Assembly (NCBI GenBank): GCA_905116865.2
Contig: CAJHNH020003135.1
Coordinates: forward strand, 409,501 to 473,500
Length of the DNA stretch: 64,000 nucleotides
Source: Candidula unifasciata
Lineage: Eukaryota > Mollusca > Gastropoda > Stylommatophora > Geomitridae
Direction of reading: 5' to 3'
Made by a program: the position numbers and the translations under genes. Shown here piece by piece: positions 56,601 through 59,600 of the stretch (positions are counted from its first letter, which is position 1; every line of letters begins with the position of its first letter). A model generated the notes under the pieces. That model was given only the letters and a program-made list of their open reading frames with translations, had not been told where the DNA came from and did not search any database.

Positions 56601-59600
56601 CAGTTCACTTGTTAAAGAATTGCGCACATGGAAACTGAATCAGTGCGTTTAGGGAGTATTCTTACAAACAAGAAGCAGTTAAATGGCCTTTATGTTGGCA
56701 TGTCACACCGAAAAGGGTTTAGGTGCATTCTGGGACAATCAGGACTGTAGGAGAACTTGTGAGTCAAACTCCAAACTGATATTCTCACATGTGCTGTTTT
56801 GTTTTACTTTCTGTATTTCAATCTGAAGATTAGCCATTTTAGCACAGAAATAAGCACCTCATTTATTACTTAACTGATTCTTTTTCTTGTGTTGCAGCTT
56901 TAAATCTCAATTGTCAACTCATTTGTTTCTTTCTATTTTTTTGTCTCTCACGCTACCCTGTCTGCAACAACCAACCAAATGTAATGCCTGCCCTGTCCTG
57001 CCCCAAATCTGATGTGTTGCTGGGCCACCCTTTTGTCTGACCTGATGCTGCTGCTGTTGTTGCTGCTGCTGCTTACCCGACCTGAACTGACTCAAACCTA
57101 CCTCGTTAACATCACTTTGTCTCACGCTGCTCTGCCTGTAAACAAACATAATAAAATGAATTGAATGAAATAGAAAGTGACGCCAGACGCTCTGTTTGTA
57201 CTGTTTGGTAGGTAGCTCTTACTGTTGTAAGGCAGTATTGATTTCTTGTGTTGCCATGGTTTCAGTGGTTCTGTTTTTGTGCTGCCAATAACCTCCACTA
57301 TTTGTGGTGTCCAAAAAATTGTTTTTAATGGGTAGACACAGGTTGACTTTGTTTCTTGAGATCACATTGAATCAATCCTGCCATCGACGTGGTGGCTTGT
57401 TTCTTCTATATCTTCCCTCATCATGGGCAATTTGTGAACACAACAATGGGACATGCAGATGTTTCTATGTCAAACTTGGTGTCATAAACAGCAGAATAGA
57501 AAGGGGTTGTGGTGAAGTGGACTTCAAGACCGTTGTTGCTGAAATACTGTCTAGAATATTGGACCCACACTTGATGTTGTACATGAGCATTGGACATGGG
57601 GCGTTGTTTTTAGAGCAGATTGTGTGCCTGACAACATTGCCTTAGATGCTGAAATACTCAAATTATCTAGGTAGATTCTATTACATGTTTATTGTTTTAT
57701 TTGGCCAGTTTGTTCTTTGGTGTCTGCAGCCATACATATAGATCATTCCCCTATTCAACAGTGAGGTTCTTTCATCAGTGTTAACCTTTGTCATAGTTGA
57801 CATTGTCTGCTTTCCTGTCACTACCATCGGTTCTAATTTGTCAGCCTCCCTCTTGTCAGGGCAGTTTGCTAAGTCCTAGCTGAATTGTTCTTGTTATTGG
57901 CAGCACTTTTGGGGGAAGGAGGAGGCTTGAAGGCGTTGAGAGTTCTAATTGGGGAGATCTGTGTGCGTGCTATATTTGTCATACATTTTATAGTGTACAT
58001 GTTATACACATTTTGTATGAAGGAATTGTCTTTCACATGGCTAGTGATCTATTTATTGAACTGAATTTTTTGTTTTTCATATTTAATTACAAAATATTAT
58101 GTTCTCAAATTGCTTCGTTTCCTTCTTACCCTGATACATGTTTTTTTTTTTTTAATGCTAAAAGTATTTTTGTCCCAAACTTATAATGGAGTAAATGTTT
58201 GTGTGTGGCAATTGTACATTTTTAATGGTTATGGAGAAAATTTTTGTGTTTTGTTTTGCAATTGTACATTTTCTAATGGTTTAGTATTGTGTTGTTTGGA
58301 TATGTGTGTATATTTATATATAACAAGTTGTATTTGTACTGCACAGTATATTTTTTTCTCTTGTAAATGTACATTTGTATGTTTTTACCAAATGTAGAAT
58401 ATGTGAGAAGTTAATATTTTTAGATTGTCCGTGTATGCTTTTGTTACAATTTAGTTTTGTCTAGGTATTTAATGTTTTTCATCATCTGTCCAGGTAAGCC
58501 TTTTCTTTCTCTGTTATAGAATCTAGTAGTAGTGAATATATTTACTGTGAACTACTGGCAGTAGAAATCTGGTCTTGTGGAGAGTGTGTGGTAGACACAT
58601 TAGAGATCCGAACCTTGTTCTGTATGCCAGATTTAAAGCAGGGATGAGGAAGTTATTCCGTGAGTGAGTACATGTCAATGCTCAGGGTAAGAATAGTCGT
58701 GCACCACCGAAGTTGTGCAGCATGAAGTGCCTATGTCACCCTGGTCCATTAACTAGAACAAGACTGTTCTAGGATCCATATTTTGACTGGCAACATCTGG
58801 TGTGAGTTCTGCCGACATTGCGGAACAGTTGATATGCTCCAGGCTGGCGATACAGAGATCCTACCACAAGTGACATGTATCATGTCTCAGCAAAAGAACA
58901 TCGTTGGTCTAGCTCACTGCTGACACAGTTTCTTGTAAGACCAGATAGTGATGGATAACGGACTGTAATCTGATCTGGTCTAAATGATGGGGCGGAGGAT
59001 CAGAGCTGTCCACAAAGCACACGCTGCTCGCTAAATGGGTAAAAGAGTTCACTATGGTGGAGTGGCGGTAGTATACATGTGTGGTTTGGTCTAGTTTTGT
59101 GGGTCGAGTGTACTAGTACCAGATTATCACCACAATGATGCTGGTGCTCTTCTGTGTTAAGGGACAGTGACTAGAGTAGTGCTGGTGGGGACAACAAAGT
59201 ATTTAATTTGGTTTTATTTAGTTCATCTTCATAATATAGCAGGGCTCTCACTATGTCTGACTGAAACTAGCTCGGTCTCTCGCTAGTGCTCACGCACTTT
59301 CATAACCAAGGAGTTTCTTGTATCATGTGCCTAACTTTGTGCTTATCAGTCAGTCCCTGCCCCTCCCTTCTGCCATATGATGTTTTGTACGATCCACTGT
59401 AGTGCCTGACATAGCCAAACTATTTAAGATGAATGTTCCTTGATGTTCAGATCTTCTGTGATTTGGTTTTTCTTTTCTTATCCATGGTATTCTGAGAATC
59501 TTTCTATAGCATTTCAGCTTTTAAAAGCCTCTTTTTTTCTCCCTTAAGGACTGCAAGATCACCCCTAACTCACATCCTGCTGTTTAACCATAAACTTTGT

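Follow-up and report, generated by a model that had tools for sequence, protein, structure and literature searches.

The 64-kb stretch of DNA analysed here (the window; 40.8% GC) comes from the genome of Candidula unifasciata, a land snail of the stylommatophoran gastropods, and its plus strand carries most of a PTB gene, here called B1. Eleven exons of B1 were first placed with a human PTBP1 sequence as seed and were then refined by their splice sites. The resulting model is identical at 388 of 388 positions to residues 32–419 of a deposited C. unifasciata protein (P0001), the 34-nt exon described below included. P0001 carries RRM Pfam domains and B1 clusters with the mollusc PTB sequences in a tree; on this evidence from sequence, the gene is a member of the PTB/PTBP (hnRNP I) family. 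Matches to the N-terminus of P0001 were found by tblastn upstream of exon a, and the rest of the protein, corresponding to RRM4, matches in four pieces downstream, outside the window. The positions of all features of B1 are given in Table 1.

Table 1. Exons, splice signals and predicted elements of PTB gene B1 (positions in the window)
Feature	Position	Strand	Remarks
N-terminal exon match	46266–46289	+	approximate edges; tblastn with P0001 N-terminus
N-terminal exon match	46968–47030	+	approximate edges; tblastn with P0001 N-terminus
Exon a (RRM1)	47714–47860	+	
Exon b (RRM1)	49264–49407	+	
Exon c (RRM2)	49828–49965	+	
Exon d (RRM2)	50305–50356	+	
Exon e (RRM2)	51317–51375	+	
Exon f (RRM2/linker)	51802–51949	+	
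Exon g (Gly-rich linker)	53967–54056	+	identical to P0001
Exon h (linker and RRM3 start)	54970–55130	+	ends in phase 0; donor GAG/GTTTGT
Putative 3' splice site TTAACTGATTCTTTTTCTTGTGTTGCAG at the upstream border of the zone	56870–56897	+	if used, 310-nt exon reading L-stop
AG exclusion zone (AGEZ), 274 nt	56898–57171	+	0 AG, 9 GA; such a zone in each of the four PTB genes found
Candidate distant branch point TGTCAAC	56912–56918	+	A at 56917 (-257); consensus scoring; not the top score of the zone
Best 25-nt pyrimidine tract of the 2-kb upstream intron	56922–56946	+	22/25 pyrimidines; end 227 nt from exon i
Rival branch-point candidate CGTTAAC	57104–57110	+	A at 57109 (-65); highest heptamer score of the zone; predicted
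Acceptor AG of exon i	57172–57173	+	5/20 upstream pyrimidines
Exon i (RRM3), 34 nt	57174–57207	+	equivalent of vertebrate PTBP1 exon 11
Donor GTAGGT of exon i	57208–57213	+	
Exon j (RRM3)	59787–59879	+	first 2 nt complete the split Gly codon
TGA, in frame only upon skipping of exon i	59811–59813	+	frame reading
Exon k (RRM3 end)	61882–61979	+	

Several other features were seen in the window. Two long open frames (11492–11938, plus strand, and 13383–13946, minus strand) resemble the C-terminal parts of LINE-type reverse transcriptases. Translations such as ISQICKTDVHAKLRFWN were found by eye to recur on both strands (for example at 22998–23619, 24339–24709, and 43412–44189), which suggests a dispersed repeat. 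At 12118–12783 there is a low-complexity tract that is nearly pure pyrimidine (58% T, 37% C), with 663 nt free of AG. Inside the gene, the intron between exons i and j contains a recursive-splice-like motif, CATCATCTGTCCAG/GTAAGC (58480–58499), and the intron after exon j a minisatellite (59994–61630) in which a 42-nt unit is repeated about 40 times. The consensus of the unit contains CCTAATGTTACAG directly followed by GTGGGTG, so that sequences resembling a branch point, an acceptor, and a donor adjoin one another. Scanning the 64 kb for tRNAs and against Rfam at gathering thresholds returned nothing.

Exon i of B1 (AAAGTGACGCCAGACGCTCTGTTTGTACTGTTTG) codes for the peptide KVTPDALFVLF, its last base beginning a Gly codon. 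With both neighbours joined on, the translation is ...ILVSNLDEE-KVTPDALFVLF(G)-VYGNVHRVKILFNKK..., and exons i and j together match PDB entries for human PTB RRM3 (1qm9, E = 4e-18; 2adc, E = 7e-18). An earlier reading of this DNA, made from its letters and open frames (the sequence-only reading), had described a 34-nt exon encoding KVTPDALFVLF(G) between an exon ending in phase 0 and one starting with 2 nt, and the splicing model, P0001, and the PDB matches all confirm it. The same reading called the acceptor and donor of the exon correct. An AG acceptor and a GTAGGT donor are indeed present, but the acceptor lacks a local polypyrimidine tract, with only five pyrimidines in the 20 nt before the NAG, as compared with 9–17 at ten other B1 acceptors. 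The 5' edge of the 34-nt exon also varies among deposited proteins of other molluscs: P0036, P0038, and P0041 of Bradybaena show a one-residue difference there (NLDEEKATPDALF versus NLDEEATPDALF), and the bivalve proteins P0065, P0077, and P0078 are likewise exactly one residue apart, as would be expected from tandem NAGNAG acceptors at this position.

By protein search (eight exon matches, with the best candidates scored) and inspection of the fetched regions, four PTB genes were found in the C. unifasciata genome. Besides B1, these are B2 (P0009) and A1 (P0208), both on other contigs, and A2, which lies about 100 kb downstream of B1 on the same contig and in the same orientation (G000:C3132, 551–573 kb; L015, L016, L017), the two being linked paralogs. 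In a 32-row tree, from which A2 was left out, B1 and B2 fall in a clade made up of heterobranchs only (support 100/100, branch 0.53), and A1 falls outside it. In each of the four, the RRM3 position is occupied by a 34-nt exon that runs from phase 0 to phase 1. The weak local pyrimidine tract was considered as a common hallmark of this exon and dropped, given that B2, A1, and A2 have ordinary counts (12, 10, and 14 of 20, respectively) and B1 alone is weak.

If exon i of B1 were skipped, the reading frame would continue as VCMVMCTV and end at a TGA 66 nt upstream of the j/k junction; here frame reading agrees with what had been claimed from the sequence. A premature stop upon skipping is found in four of the four snail genes. 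In B1, B2, and A2 it lies 66 nt before the next junction, and in A1 it lies in exon k, 47 nt from the end of that exon, with at least one coding exon further downstream. The stop arises from a conserved Val-Lys pair read in the other frame (GTG AAG giving TGA, GTA AAG giving TAA), and its shift to exon k in A1 is due to the Val codon being GTC.

From the length of the exon, its place, and the stop created by its loss, the sequence-only reading had concluded that an autoregulatory circuit older than the vertebrates exists here. The conclusion is probably right, on account of the AG-free zones described below, but the reasons given for it are weak. Two conserved intron positions flanking 11 conserved residues are enough to fix both the length and the place. 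Moreover, human PTBP3/ROD1 has an equivalent RRM3 coding exon, exon 10, for which PMC1940037 reports a conventional branch point at -21 and no EST evidence of skipping or other sign of alternative splicing, so that homology of the exon alone does not imply a circuit. With this counter-example, and with the GTC codon of A1 depriving that gene of the stop at the usual place, length, position, and stop were rejected as evidence when taken alone.

Better evidence for the circuit is a feature absent from the earlier account: the long stretch upstream of exon i that contains no AG. Whereas the AGEZ of exon i in B1 extends over 274 nt, those of ten other acceptors of the gene compared (the N-terminal exons being left out) measure 21–40 nt. 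The zone ranks third in length among the 3836 AG-to-AG gaps on the plus strand of the window, and the two that exceed it are less complex in sequence (triplet entropy 3.46 and 4.56, versus 5.28 for the zone). When its mononucleotides were shuffled, none of 20,000 shuffles was free of AG, the mean number of AGs being 9.7.

The same holds for the other three genes. The AGEZ of the 34-nt exon is 239 nt in B2, 309 nt in A1, and 265 nt in A2, so that exon i is preceded by at least 150 AG-free nucleotides in all four snail PTB genes. At the 28 other acceptors compared in these genes (10 + 8 + 4 + 6), counted after the removal of four rows in which an AG a few bases inside the exon gave an AGEZ of 1–5, the range is 16–80 nt, exon d of B2, for example, having 22 nt. 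Gaps of at least 239 nt make up 14 of the 16,944 AG gaps on both strands of the fetched sequence, and the four exon i zones are among them. For each of the four zones, AG-free shuffles numbered 0 of 5000.

Scored against shuffles, the zones of the A and B copies align weakly with each other (z 1.9–4.3), as compared with 6.7 within A and 13.2 within B, and no 8-mer is common to three of the four. Pairwise identities of 0.81–0.88 were left unused, since they came from a gap-permissive alignment, and the shuffle-based scores were kept instead. Because all four zones are free of AG despite this weak alignment, the simplest reading is that they are kept so by selection against AG, and that recent copying is not the cause.

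AGs would be harmful only downstream of the branch point, and the functional branch point of exon i should therefore be situated close to the distal end of the zone. A distal pyrimidine tract is present at this end in every case: in all four genes, the 25-nt tract richest in pyrimidines within the last 700 nt ends 203–227 nt before exon i. Heptamers were scored against the branch-point consensus. Immediately upstream of the distal tract are ATCTAAC in A1 (-238) and CTCTAAC in A2 (-237), and beside it are TGTCAAC in B1 (-257) and TGTTTAT in B2 (-229), both of moderate score. The candidate adjacent to the tract has the top score in A2 only; the highest-scoring heptamers of the other zones are CGTTAAC at -65 in B1, CTCTGAC at -87 in B2, and TTTTAAC at -296 in A1, and in B1 several heptamers besides the one at -65 also score above the distal candidate. 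Tetramers of the PTB type are concentrated toward the same end, 22 of 29 lying within the first 110 nt of the four zones, partly because the tract is itself rich in pyrimidines. Enrichment of PTB motifs over the whole B1 zone is not claimed, as a density at least as high occurs in 141 of 536 intron windows.

Exon i could instead be an ordinary constitutive coding exon, its 34 nt and the stop resulting from the conserved introns and protein, and the AG-free zone being incidental. The deposited Candidula proteins P0001, P0009, and P0208 all include it, the Val-Lys codons explain the stop, the density of PTB motifs over the whole zone of B1 is unremarkable, and exon 10 of ROD1, as described in PMC1940037, would be a precedent. 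An incidental zone, however, is difficult to reconcile with lengths of 239–309 nt in all four paralogs, against 16–80 nt at the 28 other acceptors, with the complete lack of AG-free shuffles, and with the weak alignment between A and B copies; the distal pyrimidine tract of all four genes and the proteins of the skipped form recorded for other animals (see below) also speak against it, and we consider constitutive splicing unlikely.

The upstream border of the zone deserves attention in B1 and B2, where sequences resembling 3' splice sites (TTAACTGATTCTTTTTCTTGTGTTGCAG and TTTAACCTACTGTTTTCTTCCATTACAG, respectively) end exactly at the border; the AG spacing ahead of them is ordinary (41 and 45 nt). 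The unproductive event of these two genes might thus be the use of this border acceptor (AG at 56896–56897 in B1), instead of or besides the skipping of exon i, as the long exons that would result carry early stops (L-stop in the 310-nt exon of B1; a stop after 31 codons in the 275-nt exon of B2). The border AG of B1 and B2 also counts against the autoregulatory reading of exon i set out below, since scanning from an upstream branch point would use it first. Nevertheless, 106 of the 2044 YAG sites in the window equal or exceed the B1 site in upstream pyrimidines (15 of 20), so that this site may be there by chance, and A1 has no such site. Use of the border acceptor as the unproductive event seems to us improbable, and skipping of exon i, as an exon with a probable distant branch point, is the reading that we follow below.

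The layout of exon i is that known from vertebrate PTB exons. According to PMC1431707, the AGEZ of human PTB exon 11 is 381 nt long and its branch point is at -351, where mutation abolished inclusion; the AGEZ is 438 nt at nPTB exon 10 and 590 nt at Fugu PTB exon 11. In the same source, Gooding et al. predicted distant branch points from such AG-free layouts, and the exons with distant branch points studied experimentally are few, all of them regulated by PTB. For vertebrate PTB exon 11 and nPTB exon 10, repression by PTB and nonsense-mediated decay (NMD) of the skipped mRNA are reported (PMC1940037).

Human PTBP1 exon 11 and snail exon i have in common the place in RRM3, the length of 34 nt, and the frameshift caused by skipping (PMC1431707, PMC1940037), together with a large AGEZ (381 and 274 nt, respectively) and a distal pyrimidine tract. 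Unlike human PTBP1, B1 is one of four lineage-specific copies and has a canonical-looking 3' splice site at the border of its zone; and while the branch point, the control by PTB, and the NMD of the human exon are reported, their snail equivalents are predicted. A second equivalent exon is exon 10 of PTBP2/nPTB, with the AGEZ of 438 nt, a predicted branch point at -389, and PTB-controlled skipping leading to NMD (PMC1431707 and PMC1940037). PTBP2 is a vertebrate duplicate, and the snail PTB duplicates arose separately, as judged from the tree. In open-licence texts, we found no description of such control of the exon outside the vertebrates.

Proteins of other animals were examined by three protein searches, from which the best 120 matches each (of 3697, 2866, and 956) gave 298 different proteins. 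An intact LFGVYG-type stretch is present in 207 of these and absent from 91. Among the 91 are 18 whose C-terminal tail reads (G)VYG(D/N)V-RV once the frame is shifted, and its offset from SNL is identical in every case. These 18 tails fit at 8–9 positions, and among 100,000 random tails, drawn for one fixed offset where the scan tried seven per anchor, 35 fit at six or more. By best match, and among the matches listed, 12 of the tails are from vertebrates and 6 from arthropods of five species: Lygus hesperus (two UniRef entries), Menopon gallinae, Diaphorina citri, Chironomus riparius, and Penaeus indicus. The Lygus entries presumably derive from a transcriptome; the four other species are represented by annotated gene models, from which a small exon may simply have dropped out. 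No mollusc protein with exon i skipped is among the 18, within the best 120 matches of each search.

These arthropod proteins, which lack the same exon, bear on the age of the arrangement. Control from a distant branch point could have been acquired convergently by the homologous exons of snails and vertebrates, and such turnover has a parallel in SR genes, where AS-NMD of splicing factors is conserved yet evolutionarily flexible and has been replaced after duplication (PMC4379411). Convergence is nonetheless hard to square with an exon, phase, and layout that are the same in both lineages, with the arthropod products, and with the four snail copies found, all of which retain the arrangement through at least two duplications (A2 not being in the tree); we hold it to be very improbable, and descent from a bilaterian ancestor would account better for the likeness. 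Unproductive splicing of comparable age is described for SRSF5, whose unproductive exon is found from anemone to human (PMC4379411); there, however, a poison exon is included in an SR gene, whereas in the snail PTB genes a coding exon would be skipped.

Taken together, we give a probability of roughly 70% to the reading that exon i is an autoregulatory exon, in which a distant branch point, skipping driven by PTB, a premature stop, and the decay predicted from it would limit PTB. With an AGEZ of 274 nt, exon i probably depends on a distant branch point for its splicing. It would be included when PTB is low and probably skipped when PTB is abundant, through binding and repression by the protein itself; the skipped mRNA, carrying the premature stop in its shifted frame, is predicted to undergo decay, and the amount of PTB would be limited in this way. 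Exon i is likely to be an autoregulatory exon as old as the bilaterians. We lean, with some reserve, toward the broader proposition that molluscs, arthropods, and vertebrates inherited a PTB-repressed exon with a distant branch point from their common ancestor, that all four duplicates in land snails retained it, and that the four snail PTBs check one another through it, in an independent parallel to the vertebrate network of PTBP1, PTBP2, and PTBP3.

Should this be true, a layout defined by the absence of AG over about 250 nt would have been kept on one exon since early in animal evolution, and would also have survived independent gene duplications. Among autoregulatory splicing circuits whose mechanism is visible, that of PTB would then be one of the oldest, and the AG exclusion zone would provide a simple sequence test for tracing the circuit across animals. 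The PTB genes of the snail, for their part, would constitute a second, independent family of duplicates in which cross-regulation may be studied.
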